NCBI GenBank assembly: GCA_946411835.1
Contig: CAMKFK010000003.1
Span: 1 to 64,000 of the forward strand
From: an uncultured Clostridia bacterium
Lineage (GTDB): Bacteria > Bacillota > Clostridia > Oscillospirales > Oscillospiraceae
DNA: 64,000 bases
Reading direction: 5' to 3'
A model generated the notes under the pieces. It made no database searches and was not told the DNA's origin. It worked only from the letters and a program-made list of their open reading frames with translations. Below, piece after piece: positions 8,978 through 64,000 of the stretch; position 1 is the stretch's first letter, and each line of letters opens with the position of its first letter. Both the position numbers and the translations under genes were made by a program.

Positions 8978-10720
8978 ATGAAGAGACTGATCGCCTGCCT
9001 GCTGACCGTCGCCGTGCTTTGCGCGGCGGCGACCGGCTGCGTAAAGAAGGAGACCCCGACGGAGCAGCCGCCGGAGGAAGTGGAGAACTACGCCACCGGC
9101 GACGCTTCGCTGGACGATCCGCGCAATCAGGACGGCATCGGCGCGGACGAGCTGCTGGTCGTCAGCTTCGGCACCAGCTTCAACGACAGCCGCCGGGAGA
9201 CCATCGGCGCCATTGAGAACGCGCTGGCGGAGGCGTTCCCGGACTGGAGCGTCCGCCGCGCGTTCACGAGCCAGATCATCATTGACCACGTCAAATCCCG
9301 TGACGGCAAGACCATTGACAACGTGGGGGAGGCGCTCGACCGCGCGGTCGCCAACGGCGTCAAGCGACTCGTTGTCCAGCCGACGCACCTGATGGACGGC
9401 TTCGAGTACAACGACCTTGTGGATGAGCTGGCGAGGTATGCCGACAGCTTTGACCATGTCGCCGTCGGCGAACCGCTGCTGACCTCGGACGGGGACTTCC
9501 ACGCGGTCGCCGCCGCGATTGCGGATGCGACGAAGCAGTATGACGACGGCGAGACCGCCATCGTGTTCATGGGGCACGGCACCGAGGCGGCGTCCAACGG
9601 CGTCTACGAAAAGATGCAGAGCGTTCTGGACGCGAAGGGGCTGGCGCATTACTATATCGGCACGGTCGAGGCGGAGCCTTCGCTGGACGATGTGCTGGCG
9701 GCGGTGAAAGCGGGCGGATACAGGCGCGTCGTGCTGCGCCCGCTGATGGTCGTCGCGGGCGACCACGCCAACAACGACATGGCGGGCGAGGACGAGGATT
9801 CGTGGAAGTCCGCCTTCGAGGCGGCGGGCTATGAGGTCGCGTGCGTGCTCGAGGGTCTGGGCGGCGTCGAGGCGATCCGCCAGCTCTACGCCGCCCATGC
9901 GAGAGCGGCGATGATCTCGCTGAACGAGACCTCCAGGGTCGCGGACGCGGCGCAGACCACGGAGCGCCAAAGCGTCGGCTCGGAGGGTATGACGCCCGTG
10001 TTCGCCGCCGCGCTCCGGGACGGCGTGTACAACATCAAGGTGGACAGCAGCTCGTCCATGTTCAAGGTGGCGGACTGCGAGCTGACCGTCGGCGGCGACG
10101 CGATGATCGCAAAGCTCATCATGAGCAGCGACAGCTACGGTTACCTGTACCCCGGCACGGCGGAGCAGGCGGCGGACGAGCCGTTCAAGGAGGGCGCATA
10201 CCTTGCGCCCGCAATCGAAAACGGCGTCGGCACGTTTGTCTTCCCGGTCGCGGCGCTCGATCAGGAGACCAGCTGCGCGGCGTGGAGCCGCAGCAAGGAG
10301 CTGTGGTACGACCGCACGCTGGTCTTCCGCTCCGACTCCCTGCCGCTGGACGCGTTTGCCGACGGCGCGGTCACGACGGCGGGAGTGCTCGGGCTGGCAG
10401 ACGGCCCCTACGTCTGCGACGTGACGCTCGGCGGCGGCTCCGGCAAGGCAAGCGTGCATTCCCCGGCGTTTCTGACGGTCAGGGACGGCGCGGTGACGGC
10501 GCGGATCACCTGGAGCAGCGCGAACTACGACTATATGATCGTGGACGGCGACCGTTATGACGCGGAAACCGTCGACGGATACTCGACGTTCACAATCCCC
10601 GTCGCGGCGTTTGACCGCCCGCTGGCGGTGGTCGCGGACACCACCGCCATGAGCCGACCGCATGAAATCGACTACACGCTGACCTTTGACTCCGCGACGC
10701 TCAAGAGCGAGCAATGGTGA
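8978..10720 (+). CDS. cbiK: Predicted lipoprotein CbiK-type sirohydrochlorin cobaltochelatase with two C-terminal tandem beta-type domains
   Basis: Lipobox ATGC at end of signal peptide; ELLVVSFGTSFNDSRRETIGAIE, VFMGHGTEAASNGVYEKMQ, MVVAGDHANNDMAG; C-terminal ~230 aa repeats a DGxY...FPVAA/IPVAA...LTFDS pattern. Confidence 0.85.
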   Translation: MKRLIACLLTVAVLCAAATGCVKKETPTEQPPEEVENYATGDASLDDPRNQDGIGADELLVVSFGTSFNDSRRETIGAIENALAEAFPDWSVRRAFTSQIIIDHVKSRDGKTIDNVGEALDRAVANGVKRLVVQPTHLMDGFEYNDLVDELARYADSFDHVAVGEPLLTSDGDFHAVAAAIADATKQYDDGETAIVFMGHGTEAASNGVYEKMQSVLDAKGLAHYYIGTVEAEPSLDDVLAAVKAGGYRRVVLRPLMVVAGDHANNDMAGEDEDSWKSAFEAAGYEVACVLEGLGGVEAIRQLYAAHARAAMISLNETSRVADAAQTTERQSVGSEGMTPVFAAALRDGVYNIKVDSSSSMFKVADCELTVGGDAMIAKLIMSSDSYGYLYPGTAEQAADEPFKEGAYLAPAIENGVGTFVFPVAALDQETSCAAWSRSKELWYDRTLVFRSDSLPLDAFADGAVTTAGVLGLADGPYVCDVTLGGGSGKASVHSPAFLTVRDGAVTARITWSSANYDYMIVDGDRYDAETVDGYSTFTIPVAAFDRPLAVVADTTAMSRPHEIDYTLTFDSATLKSEQW

Positions 10721-11823
10721 GGCGGCTTCTCACTGTACTGCTGGCGGCGCTGCTGCTGACGTCCTGCTCCGCAGGGGAGCGGCCGCCGGACGGGGCCGGG
10801 CCCGTCAACCGGATGCCCCTGCGCTATGCCGACCGGTTCGCCGTGGACTACGACGCCGAGGGGCGTGCCCTCGTGACGATCGGCGACGACCGCTTTCTCG
10901 TCCTCCCGGAGGGCGCGCCGGAGCGCGAGGAGCCGGGCGCGGCGGTGCTGCGTTTGCCGCTGCGCACGGTCTACTGCGCGACCTCGTCGGCGATGGACCT
11001 CATCGCGCGGCTGGACGCGCTGGATACGGTGCGCCTGACGGGCACGAAGCGGGAGAGTTGGACGCTCCCGGAGGTGGCGCGGGCGATGGACGAGGGCGCG
11101 CTCCGCTACGCGGGCAAGTACAGCGCGCCGGACTACGAGCTGCTGCTTGCGGAGGGCGCGGCGCTCGCCATCGAGAACACGATGATCTATCACAGCCCGG
11201 AGACGAAGGAACAGCTCGAGGAGCTGGGCATCCCCGTGCTGGTGGAGCGTTCGAGCTACGAAAGCCATCCGCTCGGGCGGCTGGAGTGGATCAAGCTCTA
11301 CGGGCTGCTCACCGGCAAGACGGCGGAGGCAGAGGCGTTTTTTGATGAGCAGTCGGCGCTGGCGGAGGCCATCTTTGCGCGGGAGAGCACCGGCAAAACG
11401 GCGGCGTTCTTCTTCCTCACCGCCAACGGCGGCGTGAACGTGCGCTGCCCGGAGGATTACGTCGCCAAAATGATCGAGCTGGCGGGCGGCGTCTACGCGC
11501 TCGCGGACCTGGAGATCGGGGACGCGGGCGCGCGCGCGACGATGAACCTGCAGATGGAGCGCTTCTACGCCGACGCGCGGGACGCGGACGTGTTGTTCTA
11601 CAACGCCGCCATCGACGGCGGCGTGGACACAGTGGCGCAGCTGCTGGAGAAAGGCGAGTGGCTCGCCGATTTCCGCGCGGTGCAAAGCGGAAACGTCTGG
11701 TGTACGGAGGCGGACCTGTTCCAGCGGACCTCCGGCATCGCCGCGATGATCGACGAGCTGCACCGGATTTTCAGCGGCACGGCGGACGACGCCGCGCTGC
11801 AATACTTCCGCAGATTGAAATGA
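10714..11823 (+). CDS. btuF: Corrinoid/iron-complex ABC transporter substrate-binding lipoprotein
   Basis: Lipobox LLTSC; periplasmic-binding fold; gene order with FecCD permease and ATPase. Confidence 0.82.
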   Translation: MVRRLLTVLLAALLLTSCSAGERPPDGAGPVNRMPLRYADRFAVDYDAEGRALVTIGDDRFLVLPEGAPEREEPGAAVLRLPLRTVYCATSSAMDLIARLDALDTVRLTGTKRESWTLPEVARAMDEGALRYAGKYSAPDYELLLAEGAALAIENTMIYHSPETKEQLEELGIPVLVERSSYESHPLGRLEWIKLYGLLTGKTAEAEAFFDEQSALAEAIFARESTGKTAAFFFLTANGGVNVRCPEDYVAKMIELAGGVYALADLEIGDAGARATMNLQMERFYADARDADVLFYNAAIDGGVDTVAQLLEKGEWLADFRAVQSGNVWCTEADLFQRTSGIAAMIDELHRIFSGTADDAALQYFRRLK

Positions 11824-50962: not shown

Positions 50963-52150
50963 ATGGCATTCTACCGCCGCTTGGGCGAACTGCTGCTCGC
51001 TGCGGGAACGATCACGCAGGAGGAGCTGGAAAAGGGCCTCGCGCTGCAAAAGACGCAGAAGGGGCGGCTGGGCGAGGTGCTTATCGCCAACCATATCATC
51101 ACCGAGGATCGGCTCATCGAGGCGCTTTAGATTCAACTCGGCATCGAATTTGTCGATCTCACGAAGATTCCCATCCCGACCGAGCTTGCCTCCGCCGTGC
51201 CCAAGAACATCGCCAGGCAGCATCAGGTGGTGCCGATCCGGCAGGTGAAGGGCGAGCTGTACCTCGCCATGGCGGACCCGCTGAATTTCTACGCCATCGA
51301 GGAGGTGCGCAAGGCGGTGCGCCGCAAGGTTGTGCCCGTGCTGGCGCGCGGCGGCGGTGGAGCGCGCGATCATGGTGCTCTACGGCAACGAGGGCGCGGC
51401 GAAGGCCATCGAGGAAATGCGCCGCGACCACAGCGCGAACGCGGAGGCGAGCGTCACGGCGGAGGGCTTCGCCGCCAACCAGCTTGGCGACGACAGCGTG
51501 ACCAACGCGCCGACGATCCGGCTGGTCAACTCGCTGCTCGAGCGTGCCATCACAGAGCGCTCGAGCGACATCCACATCGAGCCGCATGAGAGGGAGCTGC
51601 AGGTGCGTATGCGCATTGACGGCGTCATGCGCGACATCCTCACCGTGCCGAGCGACCTGCAAAACTCGGTCATCTCCCGCATTAAGATCATGTCCGGCAT
51701 GGACATCGCCGAGCGCCGCATCCCGCAGGACGGCCGTTTCAACGTCAAGCTCAGGGACAAGGACATCGACCTGCGCGTGTCCTCGCTGCCCACGGTCTAC
51801 GGTGAAAAGATCGTCCTGCGCCTGTTGGACAAGTCCGGCGGCGGCATCAGCAAGGAGCAGATCGGGCTGACCGGCTCCGACCTCGACAAGTACGAGAAGA
51901 TGATCCGCTGCCGCAGCGGCGTGGTGCTCATCGTCGGGCCGATGGGCAGCGGAAAGTCCACCACGATGAACACGATCATCCACGACCTGAACACCCGCGA
52001 GGTCAACATCGTCACGCTGGAGGACCCCGTCGAGTACAACATCGAGGGCGTCAACCGGGTGCAGATCAACGAGAAGACCGGCATGACCTTTGCCGGCGGC
52101 CTGCGCGATCCTGCGCCAGGACCCGGACATCATCGCCGTCGGCGAAATAC
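50963..52150 (+). pseudogene. pilB: Degraded type IV pilus/type II secretion ATPase (PilB/GspE) with MshEN-like N-terminus
   Basis: Reads through RRLGELLLAAGTITQEELEKGL...EAL-TAG(51128)-IQLGIEFVDLTKIP; +1 frameshift near 51350; GPMGSGKSTTMNTI, LEDPVEYNIEGVNRVQIN; second frameshift near 52105 then ILRQDPDIIAVGEIRDG and abrupt end. Confidence 0.93.
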
Positions 52151-52241
52151 GCGACGGTGACCCGCTGCTGACAACATTGACAGGCGTGGAGCGATACATA
52201 CGGGCGGTGGGGAAGTTGGTGAAACGGCTGGGAAAGGACAC

Positions 52242-52270
52242 TTGACAATATTGGATTTATCCTATATTAT
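52242..52270 (+). promoter_or_regulatory. Sigma-A promoter of toxin-antitoxin module
   Basis: TTGACA, 17 nt, TATTAT. Confidence 0.8.
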
Positions 52271-52298
52271 AGAGACGCAGTATGAGGAGAGAAGGTTT

Positions 52299-52661
52299 AT
52301 GTCCAACTACCTTGTAACGTTTTACACGAAGCCTGACGGGTCAAAGCCCGTCAGCGAGTTCATCCAATCGCTGGAACCGAAGATGCAGGCAAAGGTCATC
52401 CGCTCACTTGAAATTCTTGAGGCAAACGGTCCCACGCTCCGTGAGCCATACACAAAAGCACTCGGCGACGGCATATTTGAACTGCGGATACAAGCCGCCG
52501 GCGACATCAGCAGAGTGCTCTATTTCTATGTTTTGGGGCATACTATTATCGCAACACACGGATTTATCAAGAAAACGCGGAAAACGCCGCCCGCCGAGCT
52601 TCGGCTGGCAAAGACATATCGCGCCGATTATATGAGGCGGATGAAGGAGGAGCATACATGA
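52299..52661 (+). CDS. HigB/RelE-superfamily (phage-derived Gp49-like) toxin
   Basis: YLVTFYTKPDGSKPVSEFIQSLEPKMQAKVIRSLEIL...LGDGIFELRIQAAGDISRVLYFYVLGHTIIATHGFIKKTRKTP. Confidence 0.92.
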   Translation: MSNYLVTFYTKPDGSKPVSEFIQSLEPKMQAKVIRSLEILEANGPTLREPYTKALGDGIFELRIQAAGDISRVLYFYVLGHTIIATHGFIKKTRKTPPAELRLAKTYRADYMRRMKEEHT

Positions 52662-52945
52662 CGGATTTGGAAGCGCTGAAAAGCGAATTGATGAAAAACC
52701 CCGCGTTTCAGGCGGAGTACGAAGCACTCGCCCCGGAATATGAAATCATGCAGGCGATGATCGACGCGCGCCATGCGTCCGGGCTGACGCAAAAAGAACT
52801 CGCCGAACGAACCGGGATCGCGCAGGGCGACATCAGCAAGCTGGAAAAAGGGAACGCGAACCCGTCGCTCAAAACGCTCAAGCGCCTGGCGGACGGCATG
52901 GGAATGACCCTCAAAATCGCGTTCGAGCCGCAAGCCCGCGCATAA
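52658..52945 (+). CDS. XRE-family HTH antitoxin (HigA-like)
   Basis: ASGLTQKELAERTGIAQGDISKLEKGNANPSLKTLKRLADGMGM; 4-bp overlap with toxin. Confidence 0.93.
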   Translation: MTDLEALKSELMKNPAFQAEYEALAPEYEIMQAMIDARHASGLTQKELAERTGIAQGDISKLEKGNANPSLKTLKRLADGMGMTLKIAFEPQARA

Positions 52946-53008
52946 AGCGTACAGCGCGAAAGCGATTCTTCTGGACTGCGCTTCCTTCTGCTCCCACTCA
53001 TAGTAATA

Positions 53009-53047
53009 CCTCCAATGTAGTGTCCCTATTTTACACTACATCGGAGG
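53009..53047. repeat. Long inverted repeat, possible abutted IS ends
   Basis: CCTCCAATGTAGTGT - 9 nt - ACACTACATCGGAGG (one mismatch). Confidence 0.7.
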
Positions 53048-53283
53048 TTTACACAATTCCTAGGATAGTCTCAGTAACACATGGCGATATGCCTTCAGGG
53101 AAATCTGGCTGCGGTTCGCCGCAGCTTAGACGCGGCAACTGCATATCCTCCGGCAGCCCTCCGTATCAGAGGGTGGGGTTTTGCGCCCATTTTTTGAGGA
53201 GAGACGCAATTTCCGTTGGAAATCTCGCGCTGGTAACATCAAATAGCCGTGCGAGCAAAATTTATGAGTCCAGTTTCACGGAT

Positions 53284-53657
53284 TTGGGTATAATTTTAGA
53301 TACAACCCTGAGAGTTGGAGGTCAACTGCTTGGAATCGTAGGTAAACTTCCTGCCGCAAGACTTGCGTTGGAAGCGCTGCTTCCCTTTAAGAAATCCCTT
53401 GCGGATGAACTGTGCGTTCTGACCCCCCGCAGCACGGACAGCTTTTTGGCTCGATGTCAGCCAACTCTTGGTTCTGTGCGAGAAACCGCATGGCTGTCTG
53501 GCCGATCTGGCTCAACTGGTATTAGCTGAGTTGCCGGAGTGCTCTCTGTAGCTCTTTATGTGTCATCTTGCTCGCTCCCCTGCTCTTGATGACGCCAGTG
53601 TATCACTTGACCTATCCCATAAAACGGACTAGTTGCTCATTTTGCGACTATACCCAA
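53284..53657. mobile_element. Miniature/decayed insertion-sequence remnant bounded by TTGGGTATA inverted repeats
   Basis: TTGGGTATA at 53284-53292 (+) and its reverse complement at 53649-53657; contains transposase N-terminal fragment. Confidence 0.6.
53296..53566 (-). pseudogene. N-terminal zinc-ribbon fragment of an IS transposase (IS1595/IS1-like)
   Basis: Minus strand MTHKELQRALRQLS-stop-YQLSQIGQTAMRFLAQNQELADIEPKSCPCCGG, frameshift, QFIRKGFLKGKQRFQRKSCGRKFTYDSKQLTSNSQ. Confidence 0.75.
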
Positions 53658-54125
53658 TCATTTTAGCCCCGAAATATACCAGTTTCCATCGCGCTTAATG
53701 CACTTGATTTTAGCATTCATCTCATTTCGTACTCCTGCCGTGCCGTATAGGATTTTCACACGAACGGTACACTCTTTGTGCAGAAGGCTGTAAAAATGGG
53801 AGAAAAGTCGGGGTTGAATTTCTATGGAAGAAAAGAAATCCTCCGCCGTGGTTTGCAAAGAATCCGCTCCGATGAATGAGAATATTTGTTCCAGAAAATC
53901 GGATGTATCTTTTACGCCGGACAGGTTGATGACCATCAAAAGTGGTACTGAGAAGGTAGAGTTCACTTCGGCCAGCATGGATCGCACATCCATTGTATGG
54001 GCGGCCTCCGTAAAGTTCTTTATCGTCTTGTTCACTTTAATGTTGTTGACCACATGAACAGTTGTAAGAACGAGAATAATAATGAGTATTATGGCAAGAA
54101 TTCGTCTTACGGTTTTTTTCTCCAT
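53658..54125 (-). CDS. Small membrane-anchored protein of unknown function
   Basis: N-terminal TM MEKKTVRRILAIILIIILVLTTVHVVNN; C-terminal IKRDGNWYISGLK resembles NTF2-like/DUF lipoproteins. Confidence 0.7.
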   Translation of the reverse strand: MEKKTVRRILAIILIIILVLTTVHVVNNIKVNKTIKNFTEAAHTMDVRSMLAEVNSTFSVPLLMVINLSGVKDTSDFLEQIFSFIGADSLQTTAEDFFSSIEIQPRLFSHFYSLLHKECTVRVKILYGTAGVRNEMNAKIKCIKRDGNWYISGLK

Positions 54126-54197
54126 TTGAATTTACCCTCCTTTGATGCGCTGGCATTCCTCGGCTAAGCGCTCGAAACACTTCGATGTTCAGTACAT

Positions 54198-57100
54198 TCA
54201 TGATGAGCGCCTGTTGTCGAGAGTCGCTTTAATTACACTAGTATCTTTTTCTGCATAGACCCAGATTTTCCTATCGTTATCATTGATTAAAAACAAATCC
54301 ATTCTAAGCAAGTTGGTACGTTCTCTGGACCAAGAAGCATTTTCGCTGAGTCCGCGCGAAATCTCATTAGCAGCCTTGAGAACAACATCGTTAATCAAAT
54401 CGACAGTATTCCCTTTTTTATCTCTGAAAAGCGCTTCGAGCGGGTGATCTCCTGCTCGTTTCAAAAACTCTTGCAGTATGTCAGGTTTGCTGGCTTGTAA
54501 TTTATCGTAGTCACAAAACAGAAGATAGCTTTCGTCTCCTGTCACCCATAGTATTCTTGCCTTTTCAGGTAACGACGTGAAAACAGAATTTTTAAGGCTA
54601 ACGTAACAGATCTCAGGAAGTGGATTGCTGTCTTCTGTACTTATTAGCTGAAAGCCCTGATTATCATTTAACTCATAGAAAGATGCAGTCAAGTTGCCAT
54701 CATCTATGATAGAAGCCGCTTTAAATTCGTTGCCCTCTCGAATCGCAAAAACGAAAAGGCAACCTTCTCTTAAACCGTCCACGGCAAACGCCGTCGTACC
54801 GATATAATCATACGCGGACGTCAAATTCTTTGCATCCTTATTAAATCTCCACACCTTACCCTGTGCAAAAGCCTCCTCCGGCAGGACTTGACTCACATCG
54901 AGCCATTTGCCCTCAAAGGACACATAATACCCGTGAATACCTTCCTCGGACTCCTTGGCAAGACTCCATACATCTTGGTAAGCAGCTTCAGTATAGAGCG
55001 AGACACCACTCTCAAATTCAATCAACAGAGCATTTCCTTTCGCCTGAATCGCGTTGCTCTGACCGCTTCCTTCAACCAAGCTGATGCGCTCTGATCCCAC
55101 TTGCATTTCCATCGGCAAGGAATCTCGATTTCCGCTTATTACATCAACTCCTAATTTCGCCAGACGATCACGGTTGCGCCATATACTGTTGTCAATTGCG
55201 CTGTCCGTCGGCGCGTCGTCTTGCTTCTCATCAACCGATGTGCTCGTCGAGGGAGCGGGTTCCGGCGCTTCCGCGCCACTCGCCGACAAAGACTGGATCT
55301 CGGACTTTAGCTCAGAGATTTTTTTCTTACAACCATCGATGGTAACTGCTTGTGTTTGAATCGTCTCCTTATATTGTTTTATTTTTTTTGAATTAATCAC
55401 ACCACCTATGACACTACTGGTCAAAATACCCAAAAGCAAGCCGATGGCTGCCGCAATGTACAGTATCCTGTAGGAGCCCTTTTTGAGCCGTTTGGGTGGT
55501 CTTGACTTGGCGACGTTATCAGGCTTTGTAATCTCAAGACTCGACATCTCGGACAAGGGCATTGCCTCTCGCAACTTTCTGGCGTCTTCTTGGGCGCGTT
55601 TTAGGTCGTTCTCTATATCTTGCAGGTCTTCATCTTTTTTGCGCAACTGTGCTTCCAAGGAACGATTCGTTTCCTCGGCCTTTTTCTTTTCGCTTCTCGC
55701 CCGCTCCAGCTCAGAATTAGCGTTTTTCAGTTTCTTTTGGACGGATTCCTTTTCAGTTTCGGCTTTCTGTGCGCGATTTTCGGCCTTGCTCGCGCTCTCT
55801 TCGAAGCTCTTTTTCTCCGCCTCGATCCGCTTGATTTCGCGTTGCTGTTCCGTCTTTAACGCAGCGATTGCCTCCTCGTGCTCCTTATCCTTTTTCCGTG
55901 CTTCATCCTCGTAAGCCAGCGTCTTTTTTTCCAAAAGGCTTTTTGCGTATGCCAGAAAACTATCTCGAGCCCTCAATACGAAGACGCGAAGCATAGTGAT
56001 CGGATCATCCACAAACGCGACGATGTCTTGGATTTTGATATCATCGCTCGAATCCTCTTTGCCGCTCTCCTTCTCGGAAGAGAGAAGCAGCACGGCGAGT
56101 TCTTCACCGGCCAACGTATTGATACCCATTTCGGGCTTCAGCAGAGCCGGGCTGCGACGCTTAAATAACTCGGCGCACCAAGGAATGCGACAGGCTGAGA
56201 AGGAATCGTGCTTTGCCTTCAACTCTGCAAACGAACCAATCGTTCCATTATCTTGATCGGAATTAATCCAAGTGAAGAATGGGTCTGAGAGGAATTGCTG
56301 GGAACCCGACAGAAACGCCTCTCCGTCAAGAAATCTTGCATCTCGGAACAGAACCCGCATCGCATCCCGTCTGTGCTCCCAGCTGTGCATTGCCCAGCCT
56401 GATAGCACATTTTGAAACGCGCCGGAGGACGGAAGAATCTGACCGTCCTGACTCAAATCAAAAAGGGTATAGTCGCTTGTAAGGGCGTTGACTGAAGCGG
56501 ACGCCGGCTGGACGAAGATGCGCGTATATGTCTTTTTGGGGATATCGATCAGCTGCTCCGCCGACACATTGACGGCAAAGCCGACCTCCATGCCTGTGCT
56601 CTCTGGTAACAGCGAGTACAGTTGTGTCAGCAAGTCCATCGCCGTATGGATGAATCGGTCGTCCTCCGGCAGGCGAATGACTACGAGCTTGTTCGCGTAG
56701 AGATGCTTAATCGCGCCGTAAAGAAGCGCGGCGTCCTCGTTTTGCAGAATGGGATCGACCCTGCGGGGTGGCGCATTGAACGAGAGGGTTCGCTTCCCCT
56801 CTCGGTAATCGCGGACGTCCTCCCATGTGGCCAAATGCGAGCCGAACACATGGTCAATAAAGCAGTATCCACCCTCCTGCTTCGACAGGCAATCCCGCCC
56901 AAGGAAATACACGTACTCATACGTCGTGGGGCGATTGCCCGGTTTACGTTCCGGCGCGTTGACCGAAAGCGCGTAGAAGGGTTTCATATCGCTCCGCATA
57001 CCCTCGAGCCGATTCATATAGAGCGGGGCATATCGGATCGTGGGAAACGGCTCGTCCCCGTTCGCGCCAGCATTGCCGCTGCCCGCCATAAAGGACAGGG

Positions 57101-57230
57101 TCTTTTCGATGACGGAATCCGGATTCTCGCCGTTCAGAGCTTTGATGAAACGCGACAGGTTTTTCGCGCGTCCGAGATATTTATAGACGTCGTTTTGGTT
57201 CGTACCATAAAGCAAGCTGTATCGATCCAT
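54198..57230 (-). CDS. GTPase-associated-protein-1-like protein with coiled coil, single TM and extracytoplasmic C-terminal domain
   Basis: 1010 aa; N-terminal ~400 aa GAP1-N-like layout; long E/K/R-rich coiled coil; TM YRILYIAAAIGLLLGILTSSVIGGVI; Ser/Pro-rich linker; C-terminal ~300 aa beta-rich-looking domain. Confidence 0.6.
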   Translation of the reverse strand: MDRYSLLYGTNQNDVYKYLGRAKNLSRFIKALNGENPDSVIEKTLSFMAGSGNAGANGDEPFPTIRYAPLYMNRLEGMRSDMKPFYALSVNAPERKPGNRPTTYEYVYFLGRDCLSKQEGGYCFIDHVFGSHLATWEDVRDYREGKRTLSFNAPPRRVDPILQNEDAALLYGAIKHLYANKLVVIRLPEDDRFIHTAMDLLTQLYSLLPESTGMEVGFAVNVSAEQLIDIPKKTYTRIFVQPASASVNALTSDYTLFDLSQDGQILPSSGAFQNVLSGWAMHSWEHRRDAMRVLFRDARFLDGEAFLSGSQQFLSDPFFTWINSDQDNGTIGSFAELKAKHDSFSACRIPWCAELFKRRSPALLKPEMGINTLAGEELAVLLLSSEKESGKEDSSDDIKIQDIVAFVDDPITMLRVFVLRARDSFLAYAKSLLEKKTLAYEDEARKKDKEHEEAIAALKTEQQREIKRIEAEKKSFEESASKAENRAQKAETEKESVQKKLKNANSELERARSEKKKAEETNRSLEAQLRKKDEDLQDIENDLKRAQEDARKLREAMPLSEMSSLEITKPDNVAKSRPPKRLKKGSYRILYIAAAIGLLLGILTSSVIGGVINSKKIKQYKETIQTQAVTIDGCKKKISELKSEIQSLSASGAEAPEPAPSTSTSVDEKQDDAPTDSAIDNSIWRNRDRLAKLGVDVISGNRDSLPMEMQVGSERISLVEGSGQSNAIQAKGNALLIEFESGVSLYTEAAYQDVWSLAKESEEGIHGYYVSFEGKWLDVSQVLPEEAFAQGKVWRFNKDAKNLTSAYDYIGTTAFAVDGLREGCLFVFAIREGNEFKAASIIDDGNLTASFYELNDNQGFQLISTEDSNPLPEICYVSLKNSVFTSLPEKARILWVTGDESYLLFCDYDKLQASKPDILQEFLKRAGDHPLEALFRDKKGNTVDLINDVVLKAANEISRGLSENASWSRERTNLLRMDLFLINDNDRKIWVYAEKDTSVIKATLDNRRSS

Positions 57231-57234
57231 CGGT

Positions 57235-59148
57235 TTACTCCTTCAAGTGGTTGCTGAACTTGGACTGCCTCCACCGGAACATGGTATAACGATGGTCCCA
57301 TTTGTTCCTGTGCGTCTCAACGAGCTCACGATCAAAATAGCCTGGGTTCGCAAAAAGGCTACAACGCGCCAAAGCCTCCTGATCGCTGTCATTCAGCGGC
57401 TTTTCATCTCTGTATTGAGGACGCGTCAAGTAATAGCTGTTCAGCGCCCAGTCTCTCTCCGTGCTGCCGCTCAAGTCGTTTGCCCTGAATTCCGCCTCCA
57501 CCGGCGCGCAGCGGGACACCATCAGCAGCCAGTACAACAGCTTGTCCACATTGTAGGGCTCAGGGAGGCGCTTTGTCTCCTCCGGTTTTTTTTCCAGTGG
57601 GGCGTCAAAACCGAAAGGAGAGCATCGCAGAACAGAAATAAACGCTTTTTTAAAATCGTTCTTTTGCATTTCCTCCAACGTGTACTTGTAAAGCTCGCGC
57701 TTACCTTTATCTTCAAGAGTCATCATACGGTCAAGCTCTTCACGAAACAGATAACAGCCGTTACTATAGTCCGAGTCAAGCTCGCTGTCCCCGTTACCTT
57801 TGCGATCCCGATTCTGTTCGACTTCCTTGCATTTGGTAAACAATAGCATCATGGGCGCATAGTTTTGCACATGCTTTTCTCTCTGGCGTAATCTTTGATA
57901 TTCGTCAGCCCAACTGCATATTTTTTGGACTTGCGGCCAAATAGATGCTCCGCTGTCGTCCTCCGATCGGTATTGGCTCATCTCAGTGTCAAAGCAGACG
58001 ATAAAAGCGTCGCAGTTCAATGTGATGGGATATTCATTCCAAATTCTTTCTATATCCAACTTATCCGAGACCGCTTCATCATATGATTTACGTTGCCGTT
58101 CGGCAATCTTTTCAGTATCCGGTTTATCTTTCTTTTTCTCGCCGCAAAGCTCGCCGGGAATATCGTAGAGTGTCAACAGACAGTTGTGGAGATTCTGACC
58201 TGCCTCATTTGTGTTGGGCTTAATAAGGAAAGTGGCTGAGTAGGAATTGCTTGGATCGTTTGTCTTAAGGGGAGCACATCCTTCGTCATGATATCTAGAC
58301 AGATCATTTCTCAAACGGGCATTTACTTCTCCATCTTCACAAAGAGAGATACTGCAAAGCGCATTCAAGGAGGGGGCTTCTTTCCAGATACCTGTTTTGC
58401 TTTTCGAGTCGAAGGAGCCTCTTTCTGCATAGTCAGCCAACGCGACAATTGTTGAGGTCTTTCCGGAGGATTGCTGCCCCACAAAGGTTATGGTGCGGTG
58501 CTCCGCTTCTCCGGCGTGCTGAAAAAGTTTGCTTCCACAGGAGCAGACGCGATACCGCGCAAATTTGCGCTGTCCGCCATAGTAGTAATCAAAGCCCTCC
58601 AACACGTCCTCGTCCTTATCGTCTTTTGCGTGGTAGAGTTCGATGTACGCGGTCAAATTGCCATCCTTAAATTTATCTCTGAGCATTCTCAGGTCGTTCT
58701 TTAAACCATCCTCTGCATGAACATCCCAAAGAGCATCGTCTCCTTGCTGAATCAAAGTGCGGAAAATGCTCTGAACGTCCTGTTTTGAGGCTTCCTCTTC
58801 TTTCGATTCGTCATCATCCACCTGCAGCCCCTCGTCCAAGTACGCTTTCATTGTATCTATCGTCATCCCGTCGGATGAAAGCCCTTTTCTCGCCGCGATG
58901 TTCCGAACGCACTTTTCAAAAGAAATGGTGACCTCATGATAATCAAAGTCCCCATTCCCTTTTTGGACAGTTCTTGTCCCGTCAACCAGAGAATGCAGTT
59001 CCCTTGAGTCCACGAACCATTGCAGCACCTTAAACCCTTCCTCCCCCGCGACCAGCGGACCGAGGTCAAACAGCACCGGCCTGGTCCCTTCCTCGTTGTT
59101 CTGGCTGAGGCGTTTTCCACATTTTGTGCAATAAAAACTGTATGGCAT
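57235..59148 (-). CDS. Zinc-ribbon P-loop GTPase (TRAFAC/double-GTPase-like)
   Basis: N-terminal CTKCGKRL and later CSCGSKLF; Walker A FVGQQSSGKTST; LLTLYDIPGE (Walker B/DxPG); MLLFTKCKE. Confidence 0.75.
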   Translation of the reverse strand: MPYSFYCTKCGKRLSQNNEEGTRPVLFDLGPLVAGEEGFKVLQWFVDSRELHSLVDGTRTVQKGNGDFDYHEVTISFEKCVRNIAARKGLSSDGMTIDTMKAYLDEGLQVDDDESKEEEASKQDVQSIFRTLIQQGDDALWDVHAEDGLKNDLRMLRDKFKDGNLTAYIELYHAKDDKDEDVLEGFDYYYGGQRKFARYRVCSCGSKLFQHAGEAEHRTITFVGQQSSGKTSTIVALADYAERGSFDSKSKTGIWKEAPSLNALCSISLCEDGEVNARLRNDLSRYHDEGCAPLKTNDPSNSYSATFLIKPNTNEAGQNLHNCLLTLYDIPGELCGEKKKDKPDTEKIAERQRKSYDEAVSDKLDIERIWNEYPITLNCDAFIVCFDTEMSQYRSEDDSGASIWPQVQKICSWADEYQRLRQREKHVQNYAPMMLLFTKCKEVEQNRDRKGNGDSELDSDYSNGCYLFREELDRMMTLEDKGKRELYKYTLEEMQKNDFKKAFISVLRCSPFGFDAPLEKKPEETKRLPEPYNVDKLLYWLLMVSRCAPVEAEFRANDLSGSTERDWALNSYYLTRPQYRDEKPLNDSDQEALARCSLFANPGYFDRELVETHRNKWDHRYTMFRWRQSKFSNHLKE

Positions 59149-59205
59149 ATCCTATATTCTCCTTATTCATCGTCTTTACTCCGCACAGTCCGCGCGTCGC
59201 GCCGC

Positions 59206-60792
59206 TCAGCCCTCCGACCAGTCGATTTGAAGGGCGGGAATTGTCGCCTGAAGCGACTCCTCCGTGGCGTTAAAGGACATGATCTGCAAGCCTGCAAGCG
59301 GAATGGCGCGATTGGTTTCCTGACCCATAAAGACAATGTTCAGCCCAGCGTCGAGCGTGTTTGCATAATCATCAGACGCGCTTTGATCCCACAAGAGCAG
59401 ATAGCCCTGAGAGACCGCCTGACCGCCCGCCAAGCCGGGAATGAATGGGCAAGAAAGCCAGTCGCCGCTTTGCAGTTTTCCGATCAAGGTCTCCTCCAAG
59501 GTCATGTCCGCCAGCTTGTTCTGAATGAGCTCAAGCTCCGACTTGAGCTCGTCTTTTTTTCTGTCGAACCACTTATCTTCCCAAAGCTCGTCATACGCGC
59601 CCTTTAGCCTGCTGGTATACTCTTTCCAATTTTCGCCGACGGTCCAGTCGCGCAATTCATTGAGATAGTCGTCGATTTCGCGCCAATAGGCAGTCTGCCA
59701 TGCCTCCTGCGAATTCTCACCCTCCTGGTAGTAGAGCATGGGAAGGCTCGGACGGATGGTCGGCAACATGGACGGCAGTTCCCTGCTCAAAGCCGTCTCA
59801 TCCGTAAAGAACGAGAGCCCGATCTGATTCTTTTCTATCCAATCCATCAAGTATTTCTTGGGATCCGACGCAAACGTCTGGGAGAATTCGCCCTGAATCC
59901 GATTCTGCAGCTGCGCGGCTCTGTCCCGCAGATCTTCCACGCTGATCTTACGAGCCCCCTCGAACACATCGTTCCTGCCCTTTTTGGCACGAGCCTTTTT
60001 CAGACAGCCGACAACGTTCATACCCTCGTGGAGCTCGGGACGGTAATCCTCGGCTGAGAATTGGCTTTTGATTTGGGCGATCTTGTCTGCCTGTTCCAGC
60101 TCCAAAAGGCGTCTGATGGGAGCCTCGCCGCCCAAATACTTAAGAATAACGTCCTTTCTCTTTTTGAGACGCTCTATTTCCTCTTTATGAAACGAATCAA
60201 ACCGAAGGACGGAAACGTCGTCATAAGGCACAAATCCAAAATAGGGAAGCTCGCCCGCCGGATTGCTGAAGCGACGGAGCAGATCCAAAAGCGCCGCAGC
60301 GAACGTCCACGGAAGTTTTTTCTCGTCAATCGCTCTGCGGGCGAGCAGGAACAGCCGTTTCTGAAACATTTGATTCTCAGAGCTTGCGTTGCTTTTGGAC
60401 AGTTCCAGAATGCTTTGGACGCATCCAGACAGATCGACCACAGGGATTAGCCCCATATACATGAGCTGAATCTCCATTCGGATGGAATGTGTGACGCCGA
60501 GTATCTTGGAAAGGTATTTTTGCAAATCCAGACCCGCGCCGCCATTAAACTGCCTTACATCGTAGAGAACGACCAGCAGCCATGATCCTCTCGTTAGCTT
60601 CTTCTCCCTGATCTCGTCCACAACCAGTGTGCAAATCTTTGACAGATCGCTGTTGTCCCTTGCATTCACCCAAATCCCGTCGGTGCCGAGTTCCTCGGCG
60701 AACTGCTTACGGGCAAACTCACCATCTTCCTGTGACAGAAAAGAGACATACATCAACTTGTTTTGAATTTCATGCGCGTCCAGCAAAGCCAT
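59206..60792 (-). CDS. Uncharacterized protein of GTPase-associated operon
   Basis: 528 aa from MALLDAHEIQNKLMYVSFLSQEDG; GAGGTGAAC near start; no family recognised. Confidence 0.65.
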   Translation of the reverse strand: MALLDAHEIQNKLMYVSFLSQEDGEFARKQFAEELGTDGIWVNARDNSDLSKICTLVVDEIREKKLTRGSWLLVVLYDVRQFNGGAGLDLQKYLSKILGVTHSIRMEIQLMYMGLIPVVDLSGCVQSILELSKSNASSENQMFQKRLFLLARRAIDEKKLPWTFAAALLDLLRRFSNPAGELPYFGFVPYDDVSVLRFDSFHKEEIERLKKRKDVILKYLGGEAPIRRLLELEQADKIAQIKSQFSAEDYRPELHEGMNVVGCLKKARAKKGRNDVFEGARKISVEDLRDRAAQLQNRIQGEFSQTFASDPKKYLMDWIEKNQIGLSFFTDETALSRELPSMLPTIRPSLPMLYYQEGENSQEAWQTAYWREIDDYLNELRDWTVGENWKEYTSRLKGAYDELWEDKWFDRKKDELKSELELIQNKLADMTLEETLIGKLQSGDWLSCPFIPGLAGGQAVSQGYLLLWDQSASDDYANTLDAGLNIVFMGQETNRAIPLAGLQIMSFNATEESLQATIPALQIDWSEG

Positions 60793-60845
60793 ATCGTTCA
60801 CCTCGTTACTTTGTGATATCAAACCAAGCAAATTGAATCTCAAGG

Positions 60846-60900
60846 CCTATGTGACCACTCTCCCGCGCCGCAAGTGATTCGCACGGCGCGGGAGCATAGG
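60846..60900 (-). promoter_or_regulatory. Strong intra-operon hairpin without U tract
   Basis: CCTATG...CTCCCGCGCCG - loop - CGGCGCGGGAGCATAGG. Confidence 0.6.
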
Positions 60901-60916
60901 AAGCCCATCCAAAGAA

Positions 60917-63736
60917 TCAAACGAGGGTGTCCCACAGCGTGGTTCTGGCGTAGAAGAGCTGGATCTTCTTCAACTCGTCGTCCGAGAGACCCAGATTTGC
61001 CATATTCCTCTGGAATTTCATCGTGACGGTAACGTCGTTCTCGGTGGTGGGCAGATCCGGCTGCGCACCCTTCTCAACCAGACCTTCGCGCTCACTAATC
61101 AAAAGAGCTGCGTTTCTTTCGCCCTTTGCAAGGTCGTCCGCATAAGCCTCGTCGAGCATGAGCGACCCGCGATACTCGATCGCTTTCTTGCAGTAGTTTT
61201 CTAACTGGGTTCCCTGCAACGCGGCGTCCAGCTTGGAGAACAGGTAATAGCCCAAGAGCCCGTTCTCAATGAGCATCTTATCCTTTTTGGGAAGATAGGG
61301 ATACATTGTCTTTGCAAAGTTCGCCAGCGGCTTCGGAGTACCACGTTCGGAATCCTTCACGACCCATCTCCCCGCGTTGTCCTGATAGAGGAAGAGCGCA
61401 TCCAGCAGGACGTACATCATGGCGGGACGTAGTCTCTCCTTAAGAACAATGTTGATGTCGTCAATGTCCATGCTGCACTTGCGGAACAGCTTCAGAGTCT
61501 TCAGTATCTCACAATACATGGGCACATGAGCGCGGAGCACACGCACGGCGTTTTCCCATGCGGCGTCCTCCGTGGGGGCAGTAGTGGCAAAGATCCCGCC
61601 ATTCTCCAGCCTGACCATCTTTGAGATAGCTCCGAGATCTTTTCCGTTCTGGCTGGCGACCTCCTGCGCCAGACGCTTTCCCTTGCGCAGAAGCCCCGCC
61701 CCGTCAAACGCCGTTTCATACGACGAATAGAGGTTGACGTCAATGGGGTGCCACTGGATCGTCTGGTCACAATAGACCCGATGAACCTGATACTGTTCAT
61801 TGCCCAGCTTGTCGCAATACAACACGCCGAGTTCCTTGCACTCCTCCACGATCTTTCCGATCTTGTTGCGGATTTCTCCCTCGTAGCTGATGATACCGGT
61901 GATAGGGTCGGGGATGCGAGGATCGGTCGCGGGAACGGTAAGAGAGGGGTATTCTTCCCACGGGACGGCCGGAAACAACTCGTCATCCGCTTTGATGTCC
62001 CTATATTCGTTCGCGGATATCTTAACGGCGCTGGGCGACATGCAGTGCAGCTCGGTGGCAACCGCCTTGGAGACCGTCGAGGCGATATGAGGCGCTCTCT
62101 GAAGCGTGTCCAAATACTGAGCTTCCCATGCAGCCAAATCATTCAGCTTGTAGACCTCGAAGGGAGCGGCAAACTGATAGCAGGAGATGGCCGACGCGTC
62201 GGCAGAGGAAAAGATTTGCAGACTAAACGCCGGCGAGGGGAACTCTGCGGCAAAGGCAGCCGTGATCGCCGTAGCAATGGCCTGCCCGCCTTCCGTGCTC
62301 AAAGCGGAGGGATAGACCGCCACGATGTAATTTGGCGTCACGTTGCCGTTAATCTGCGGCTGGCTTTTTGCGCGCAGGCTGTGGGCAATTTGCTGCGCCG
62401 TCTGCACATATGACTGCCCGCCGCTGTTCTGCAGTTCGTCAAACAGCATTTTGATCGAGACGTCAATCGTCTGCGGAACCTGAAATGAAATGAACCTATC
62501 AAAGGTAACGCGAGCCGGAATGGGGCTGTCCTCGGAAACCAGCTCCAATCTGGACGGATCGGCGGCGGACTGCCGGACAAGCTCTTGCGAAAAGTCCAGC
62601 CATTTCGACGGATCCTCAAAGAAGCTGTTGATCAGCGCATTGCGCGTCTGCTGGGCGTTCACGGTAGCCAACGCCTGATCGGCCTTATCCCGCAGCCAAT
62701 TATAGGTGGTCTGTCCAAGCGCGGCAATGTTGACCTCGTTGGGCGCTTCCGTGGCATTCTGGAACTTGCTGAAGCTGGAGAAGCTGTCGGCAAAACTATC
62801 GTAAACGGCGGTCAGGCTCTTCAGAACGTATCCGAACGCCTCGATCTGATCTCTGAGAATCCTCGCAGGCTGAAGGAATTCCGTGTCGAACAGGTTATTC
62901 GCTTTGAAAACATACTCTCGGCGTTTCTTGTTGATCTCCGCCGCGTATTGACCCTCAAACGCCAGCTTCCACGCGGTCTTCTGAGGAATGCGTTCGGCGA
63001 GCTTAAGGGGATTCAGAACATTGACCTGATCGATTTTCCTGCGCACCGCGCTCAGATTATTCGCGGCGTTGGCAGGGCTGATCCAGTCGTATTCGGCGCC
63101 GCTTTGCATTTCCTTCCCGTCCCGAAGGTTTTCCAGCATGATCCGAATGCCGATCCCGGAATTGTCGCCGTCCTGAAGGAACTTTCCATCAAATACGTTG
63201 ACGAAAGCAAGCGGACCCTCCTGCTGAATGTACTGGATAACGTTATTCTTATAGCTGCAGAAGAGGTTTCGGATCATGTTCTGCAACTCGTTTTTTGTGG
63301 AAAAATCCGAGTTGTTTTCCACATAGACCTGACAGGAGTCTTTTGTGCCCTCATCGTCATAATTGCCTTTTCGAATGGAATCCCATGTAAAATCCTCTGA
63401 ATCCAGATGCAGAACCTCAAACATATCCATATGACCGGAGTGAACATTTTCCAGAAAAGTATTGAGGCCGCCGAGGAGCTGCTGTGCCGCCGCTGTGCCC
63501 GCCACGGCGGGGAAGAAGTCGTCCTCCCCGCGGAAGGGCAGAATGCTCACACCCGTCGCGGCAAGCTGACCATGCACCTTCGGCGAAACACTGCGAATTC
63601 CCGCTTTCTGACAAACCTCGGAGACCACATAGGCTCTGGTAAGCATCTCCGCCGCAGAGGCGGTGGCGTACCCGACGGCAGCATACTGTCTGGGACGCTC
63701 GTGGTTCTCACCGGGCGAATTCCCTGTGTTCATCAT
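60917..63736 (-). CDS. Large uncharacterized protein of GTPase-associated operon
   Basis: 939 aa, largely helical composition; no recognised catalytic motif. Confidence 0.7.
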   Translation of the reverse strand: MMNTGNSPGENHERPRQYAAVGYATASAAEMLTRAYVVSEVCQKAGIRSVSPKVHGQLAATGVSILPFRGEDDFFPAVAGTAAAQQLLGGLNTFLENVHSGHMDMFEVLHLDSEDFTWDSIRKGNYDDEGTKDSCQVYVENNSDFSTKNELQNMIRNLFCSYKNNVIQYIQQEGPLAFVNVFDGKFLQDGDNSGIGIRIMLENLRDGKEMQSGAEYDWISPANAANNLSAVRRKIDQVNVLNPLKLAERIPQKTAWKLAFEGQYAAEINKKRREYVFKANNLFDTEFLQPARILRDQIEAFGYVLKSLTAVYDSFADSFSSFSKFQNATEAPNEVNIAALGQTTYNWLRDKADQALATVNAQQTRNALINSFFEDPSKWLDFSQELVRQSAADPSRLELVSEDSPIPARVTFDRFISFQVPQTIDVSIKMLFDELQNSGGQSYVQTAQQIAHSLRAKSQPQINGNVTPNYIVAVYPSALSTEGGQAIATAITAAFAAEFPSPAFSLQIFSSADASAISCYQFAAPFEVYKLNDLAAWEAQYLDTLQRAPHIASTVSKAVATELHCMSPSAVKISANEYRDIKADDELFPAVPWEEYPSLTVPATDPRIPDPITGIISYEGEIRNKIGKIVEECKELGVLYCDKLGNEQYQVHRVYCDQTIQWHPIDVNLYSSYETAFDGAGLLRKGKRLAQEVASQNGKDLGAISKMVRLENGGIFATTAPTEDAAWENAVRVLRAHVPMYCEILKTLKLFRKCSMDIDDINIVLKERLRPAMMYVLLDALFLYQDNAGRWVVKDSERGTPKPLANFAKTMYPYLPKKDKMLIENGLLGYYLFSKLDAALQGTQLENYCKKAIEYRGSLMLDEAYADDLAKGERNAALLISEREGLVEKGAQPDLPTTENDVTVTMKFQRNMANLGLSDDELKKIQLFYARTTLWDTLV

Positions 63737-64000
63737 TCAGCCGCATTCCGGTGAGGGGAAGCGCGTTGCTAATAAAGGATTCCACGCTGAAAACGCCCGG
63801 ATGCCCTCCTACCGCCGTCATTTCGGTGAGCATCGTGATGAAGTGCTCCGCCACGGTCTCCATGGCGACGCGGAAGGCATCCTTGTTCCCCGTTTGACTT
63901 CCAACGAGATAAGGAAGCTCGTAGAAGTGCTTTCCGCCCGTCGGCAGCTTGATTTCGGGGTTTGCAGTATCGTTAACGACCCATGTGTCCTGATAGCCGT
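63708..64000 (-). CDS. C-terminal part of another operon protein, truncated by window edge
   Basis: Open minus-strand frame to window end: GYQDTWVVNDTANPEIKLPTGGKHFYELPYLVGSQTGNKDAFRVAMETVAEHFITMLTEMTAVGGHPGVFSVESFISNALPLTGMRLNDEHREFAR-stop; not in ORF track. Confidence 0.75.
   Translation of the reverse strand, partial: GYQDTWVVNDTANPEIKLPTGGKHFYELPYLVGSQTGNKDAFRVAMETVAEHFITMLTEMTAVGGHPGVFSVESFISNALPLTGMRLNDEHREFAR

Follow-up and report, generated by a model that had tools for sequence, protein, structure and literature searches.

What is the block of genes that closes the window, the stretch of 64,000 nucleotides analysed here (positions 1 to 64,000 of contig CAMKFK010000003.1, from an uncultured Clostridia bacterium; assembly GCA_946411835.1)? 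An earlier note on this DNA saw in it a GTPase-centred operon and a candidate undescribed conflict or signalling system. The operon is real. Judged by sequence, it is very probably a divergent DO-GTPase/GAP1-N2 system of the Firmicutes tubulin theme, and because its layout matches that theme as described in 2020 (PMC7159879) the system is not undescribed. We are also confident that the operon is cargo of a large-serine-recombinase element integrated in the chromosome. The explanation as a whole, that is, a divergent member of the tubulin theme, carried by an element and working in the manner proposed below, is held with moderate confidence.

The operon lies on the minus strand and comprises five open reading frames (ORFs; 155, 1010, 637, 528 and 939 aa) and a partial ORF at the window edge, just as the earlier note had listed them. 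Its gaps of 4 to 125 nt with one overlap were measured as 4, 57, 72 and 124 nt and a single overlap of 29 nt. The contig (C3) runs to 67168, 3,168 bp beyond the window, and can therefore be read rightward of it. The genes of the operon are the following:

53658..54125, minus strand: 155-aa protein with one N-terminal transmembrane segment, which has a counterpart in locus L044
54198..57230, minus strand: 1010-aa GAP1-like protein, from a divergent-GAP1 profile and its position
57235..59148, minus strand: 637-aa DO-GTPase-type P-loop GTPase, from a profile of relatives, similarity to L044 and motifs
59206..60792, minus strand: 528-aa protein (ATG start) at the position labelled P5xx, from a match to locus L041, its position and a low-confidence model
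60917..63736, minus strand: C-terminal part of a tubulin-like gene (the 939-aa ORF), from homology to L041; no Shine-Dalgarno sequence
63708..64000 in the window and on to 64796 on the contig, minus strand: N-terminal part of the same tubulin-like gene (362 aa), from Pfam Tubulin_2 and homology to L041

The assignment starts from the tubulin. The edge ORF matches Pfam Tubulin_2 (PF13809, E 1e-34), and its GTP-binding loops can be read as IGLGGTG and GGTCSG; the relatives carry GGTGSG. This ORF shares 42% identity with residues 13-349 of one 1266-aa tubulin in L041, and the 939-aa ORF shares 35% identity with residues 370-1263 of that same protein. With the L041 tubulin as query, the two pieces were recovered from the genome of the window in order, and the window's RQYAAVGYATASAAEMLTRAYVV picks up exactly where KCFASLGFAEAAAPKKIVRAYAV of L041 goes on. 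On this homology the two ORFs are a single tubulin-like gene, and since L041 has them as one, a +1 frameshift separates them in the window copy. The coordinates place it at about 63712-63758, where it interrupts the Tubulin_2 domain at profile position 299 of 356. The single-chain homology and the sequence continuity thus reject the 939-aa ORF as a subunit of its own, and the separate 939-aa gene of the earlier note becomes the frameshifted C-terminal part of the gene begun by the edge ORF. The frameshift may represent decay, an assembly error or a real splitting of the gene. A search of solved structures with the tubulin gave only marginal matches to FtsZ, and none informative for the GTPase or for GAP1; pairwise single-sequence hhalign comparisons were too weak for all operon proteins except the tubulin.

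An initial scan of the genomes with the sequence of the 637-aa GTPase alone found no match. A profile built from ten relatives, the window excluded, and run on about 1,100 ORFs recovered this protein at E 8e-28, and it shares 22% identity over 609 aa with the GTPase of L044 (E 2e-12). These relatives themselves match DO-GTPase2 (best E 8e-10). The protein has a Walker A motif at G224-T231, and its DIPGE at 329-333 aligns with the DxxGE (Walker B with Glu) of all seven relatives; this glutamate is given as a mark of the DO-GTPase family (PMC7159879). C7/C10 and C202/C204 align with cysteines that all eight GTPases of the alignment share and are predicted to form one or more N-terminal zinc ribbons. 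On profile and motifs combined, the protein is a DO-GTPase.

Directly 3' of the GTPase gene, after a gap of 4 nt, follows the gene of the 1010-aa protein, with a GAP1-like N-terminal region (~1-400), a coiled coil (~430-560), one transmembrane segment (~590-608) and a C-terminal part of ~400 aa. A profile of the proteins at the GAP1 position in L042, L043, L044 and L046 recovered it at E 9e-11, the next-best matches among 1100 ORFs being true GAP1s at E ~0.01, and hhalign aligned it to the recognised GAP1 set across the GAP1-M core (Prob 47%). The AlphaFold model of its N-terminus is too poor for conclusions (predicted local distance difference test, pLDDT, 43.5). The protein thus appears GAP1-like, short of proof. 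The 155-aa protein downstream corresponds to a 178-aa protein of L044 whose gene immediately follows GAP1 (hhalign Prob 89%, 126 columns); it is a putative accessory membrane subunit.

At the other end of the operon, 5' of the tubulin, a 735-aa frame encodes a single-pass membrane protein with a galactose-binding-type domain (GBD_Hemicentin, E 3e-4, below the cut-off). Homologues of it are the vWA proteins encoded ahead of the tubulin in L041 (E 1e-16) and L043 (E 2e-11), which themselves show weak VWA_2 matches. Hence one vWA-family protein is recognised, through L041/L043 homology, with its N-terminal half lost at the contig end; any second vWA gene farther 5' would be off the contig. Of what the earlier note had proposed, the GTPase family, the tubulin-like and vWA partners and the Firmicutes variant are borne out, and GAP1 as a resemblance.

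The 528-aa protein is the least securely placed member. Its N-terminal half resembles a truncated gene after the tubulin in L041 (25%, E 3e-5), and its place after the tubulin is taken in about a dozen loci by a protein of 490-840 aa. In other bacteria, proteins at this P5xx position form, by eye, a series from a plain tubulin motif (VLLIGLGGAG) to decayed ones (IISLGLSAKK, FVFIGDKVWE), and two members of the alignment of the 528-aa protein match Tubulin_2 weakly (best 0.011). A leave-one-out profile of the P5xx family did not match the 528-aa protein. Foldseek hits of its AlphaFold model against the PDB were mostly tubulin chains (E 0.026-0.06, TM-scores ~0.2), but some unrelated folds (Rossmann-like or barrel) scored about as well; the model is too poor to rest on (mean pLDDT 41.6) and we take the result as a hint. 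Our best guess is a degenerate second tubulin. Of the two or three unassigned subunits counted in the earlier note, only this protein, weakly assigned, stays near that description: the edge ORF and the 939-aa ORF merge into a single tubulin, the 1010-aa protein seems to be GAP1-like and the 155-aa protein has its L044 counterpart.

The gene order recurs across Firmicutes loci, so that a lack of conserved synteny, which the earlier note had named as refuting its view, did not show. Tubulin, P5xx, GTPase and GAP1 follow each other on one strand in L033, L035, L042, L043, L044, L059, L093, L137 and L141, and the fuller order of vWA, tubulin, P5xx, GTPase and GAP1 is repeated on one strand in many loci. 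In L069/L136 (one locus) and L140 the order is kept through the GTPase, with a large protein unscored by the profiles at the GAP1 position, while L139 lacks P5xx and L046 has GTPase-GAP1 ahead of two tubulins. These comparisons document gene order, not independent homology, because the members used for building the profiles match by construction. The GTPase profile, with the window included, matches in 14 of the 396 genomes of the order. No match to the 637-aa GTPase was found in 17 same-genus genomes, and none to the 939-aa tubulin part in those 17 or in 200 genomes of the family. Likewise, the L041 tubulin has no relative in the phage or plasmid collections and the GTPase none in the plasmids, by which a phage or plasmid origin of the block was rejected.

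Several observations weigh against the assignment, or against a working copy. The 637-aa protein itself reaches only E 0.016 with Pfam DO-GTPase2, below the cut-off, and its G4 motif is TKCK, with the usual Asp missing. Pfam gives no GAP1-N2 or GAP1-M match on the 1010-aa protein. The tubulin gene is frameshifted, so the copy may not function, and two tandem stops lie just 5' of the vWA core (L002:7080-7168, at the end of contig C3); because these are so near the contig end, either the vWA gene is truncated or the contig end is poor. Finally, there is no FNIII-type gene, given as typical of GAP1-N2 systems, between the 528-aa gene and the GTPase gene, which lie 57 nt apart within the contig. 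Relatives carry genes of 155-242 aa between P5xx and the GTPase, and an FNIII-type gene of the window system could lie beyond the contig end.

How the operon came to lie here is indicated by its left border, where the following features precede it:

50963..52157, plus strand: 5' part of pilB/GspE (T2SSE ATPase), T2SSE positions 4-224
52242..52661, plus strand: RelE/HigB-like toxin of the Gp49 family (Pfam PF05973 E 2e-26), at the left end of the insert
52658..52945, plus strand: helix-turn-helix antitoxin, Pfam HTH_3 E 7e-13

The pilB gene is cut at 52157 (GACGG|TGACC), and T2SSE positions 222-370 are found on contig C63 of the same bin (G000). There, at 9108-11303 (L162), a 731-aa ORF joins the 3' half of pilB, in frame, to a large serine recombinase, whose 558 aa include Resolvase, Recombinase and zinc-ribbon domains. 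A 2-bp GG core is compatible with the ends, and the GG at 52156-52157 would be the recombination core. In 10 same-genus genomes pilB is intact across the cut point, and the cut copy in the window already bears a nonsense codon and frameshifts. The two pilB halves, the GG core, the adjoining recombinase and the intact relatives together place the toxin-antitoxin pair and the operon inside an integrated segment. We infer the linkage of C3 and C63, which are not physically joined in the assembly. Composition agrees: G+C is 0.51 for 52165-64000 against 0.68 for positions 1-50948, and all 11.8-kb stretches of this left flank lie at 0.649-0.721, none below 0.649. The AT-richer block and the adjacent toxin-antitoxin module of the earlier note are thus both present. 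The insertion sequence relics that it also named are unconfirmed, the ORF at 53020-53529 having no match to any Pfam family, and PADLOC returned for the operon only coiled-coil and P-loop noise and no known system. A core or housekeeping origin was rejected by the absence in same-genus genomes, the G+C shift and the disruption of pilB, and the families are not housekeeping ones.

The border at 52157 could alternatively be a chimeric contig join, since the G+C shift falls exactly there and the assembly holds no physical C3-C63 link. However, the second half of pilB sits in the same bin and resumes at the same profile position, and both halves share the GG core, with the C63 half fused to a large serine recombinase as serine-integrase insertion leaves it; we therefore consider a chimera highly improbable and keep the insertion. 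Whether the inserted copy still works is a harder matter. With a frameshift in the tubulin and stops in the vWA frame at the contig end, the copy may be broken, and it is a serious possibility, though short of our expectation, that a decaying remnant remains: the family would be right, the tubulin dead, the vWA protein perhaps dead and the operon inactive in this genome. The frameshift hits a gene that is intact in L041, the downstream tubulin part lacks a Shine-Dalgarno sequence (one was looked for before its ATG, whereas those of the four following genes, 528, 637, 1010 and 155 aa, are clear), the stops are in frame and the adjoining cut pilB is already decaying. Yet long open frames persist for the 1010-, 637-, 528- and 939-aa proteins, and good ribosome-binding sites precede the first three. 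A single indel can be an error in an assembly that is a metagenome-type draft of 142 contigs at 75% completeness, and its contig ends are unreliable. A functional split, in which the tubulin is made as two chains or through programmed +1 frameshifting at CGG-UGA, would suit the length and conservation of both parts, the TGA at which the N-terminal part stops and, 29 nt before this TGA, an ATG in the other frame. This ATG has no Shine-Dalgarno sequence, no slippery site is evident in the sequence, all intact relatives found have a single chain and the break lies inside the Tubulin_2 domain, which makes such a split most improbable.

For a working operon we propose a tentative and somewhat doubtful mechanism, which follows what the 2020 paper predicted and the topology of the membrane proteins. 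What is observed are the gene identities, their order, the insertion site and the recombinase; the functional steps from there on are all conditional. At the membrane, the single-pass vWA/galactose-binding-type protein, the transmembrane-anchored GAP1 and the small transmembrane accessory protein would detect a cue from the envelope or from an invader. On this signal GAP1 would shift and control the nucleotide state of the zinc-ribbon DO-GTPase, and this GTPase would license the assembly of the tubulin-like protein. The degenerate second tubulin (528 aa) may cap or modify the polymer, and the membrane-proximal polymer would then wall off the invader or stop the cell. We infer a conflict role for the operon, and in the literature it is likewise only predicted (Kaur, Burroughs, Iyer and Aravind, eLife 2020, PMC7159879); no experimental study of DO-GTPase/GAP1/tubulin systems was found in the open-licence literature. 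The anchoring of vWA, GAP1 and the small protein in the membrane, tubulins as the chief 'effectors' and the lack of any detected nuclease or toxin domain in the operon would equally suit a mobile machine for envelope or cell organisation, with a GTPase-controlled bacterial tubulin positioned by membrane proteins and no part in conflict. This seems rather unlikely in view of the sporadic distribution (the 14 genomes of the order), the carriage on a recombinase element beside a toxin-antitoxin pair and the published prediction of conflict.

Other tubulin loci were met during the survey. In a genome of the same family as that of the window (G090; L029/L030, ~C1:42000-66000) a different tubulin locus has a ~1190-aa tubulin beside an 887-aa protein, with 653- and 1465-aa proteins, a Ser/Thr kinase, a PP2C phosphatase and WXG100-like proteins. 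It looks like another tubulin-centred system, perhaps type VII-linked, and ~1200-aa tubulins of this kind are frequent in the order. Lachnoclostridium sp. An14 (L048, 9890-20915) has three consecutive tubulin-like genes followed by a P5xx protein, and in Caldilineaceae loci (e.g. L080, L086 and L100) a ~840-aa tubulin-like gene is followed by a conserved protein of 1000-1100 aa that opens with a RSRAAILCFGGWGLQTMLHL motif.

The preferred reading, a divergent tubulin-theme system carried by an element, has several consequences. It adds direct evidence of carriage by an integrated serine-recombinase element, with an empty site that can be recovered, and backs the claim that DO-GTPase/GAP1/tubulin neighbourhoods are mobile. 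Since the branch falls below the Pfam cut-offs, the spread of these systems is probably undercounted. If a membrane operon switched by a GTPase does pair a nucleotide-binding tubulin with a degenerate one, filament-based defence or envelope control in bacteria would also become testable in a laboratory host. A further idea, which we regard as speculative and unlikely, is that the window and L041-L044 form a separate GTPase-tubulin branch missed by present profiles, in which the window copy does without an FNIII sensor, senses through its transmembrane-anchored GAP1 with the large C-terminal region and the small transmembrane protein, regulates the active tubulin by a nucleotide-dead second one, and is spread by serine-recombinase elements into pilB. 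If so, type IV pili or DNA uptake of the host would be disrupted.

Among the relatives, those on the same branch as the window are L041 (Clostridiales metagenome-assembled genome, MAG, SUG867), L042 (a MAG labelled Turicibacter), L043 (Eubacteriales MAG) and L044 (Lachnospiraceae UBA7729), with tubulins of 1254-1288 aa, P5xx proteins of ~490-550 aa, zinc-ribbon GTPases of 620-784 aa and divergent GAP1s. L044 has, like the window, a small transmembrane protein after GAP1. In contrast to the window, the tubulin is intact in all four, and L042-L044 have an extra gene of 155-189 aa between P5xx and the GTPase; the L041 locus ends inside P5xx. The canonical Paenibacillus-type operons (L059, L093 and L033, with L035 similar) share the order vWA, tubulin, P5xx, GTPase and GAP1. 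They differ by a GTPase of 419-425 aa without the long insert, a GAP1 that is clear by Pfam, a separate transmembrane gene of 430-465 aa and a gene of ~210-230 aa.

Among described systems, tubulin genes occur in about half of the GAP1-N2 systems, the tubulin-bearing ones being confined to Firmicutes and Actinobacteria. Those of Firmicutes encode a pair of tubulins with coiled coils, together with two vWA proteins of which one sits in the membrane (PMC7159879), and the window is a close fit to them. Unlike these, the window has a GTPase and a GAP1-like protein below the Pfam cut-offs, a single GTPase, a putative second tubulin that is unrecognisable by sequence, a frameshifted tubulin and an insertion into pilB by a serine recombinase. 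It shares with the theme a zinc-ribbon DO-GTPase followed by a protein that appears GAP1-like and bears a transmembrane segment, a tubulin-like protein and perhaps a second one, a membrane vWA-family protein, a mobile neighbourhood and Firmicutes-type hosts.

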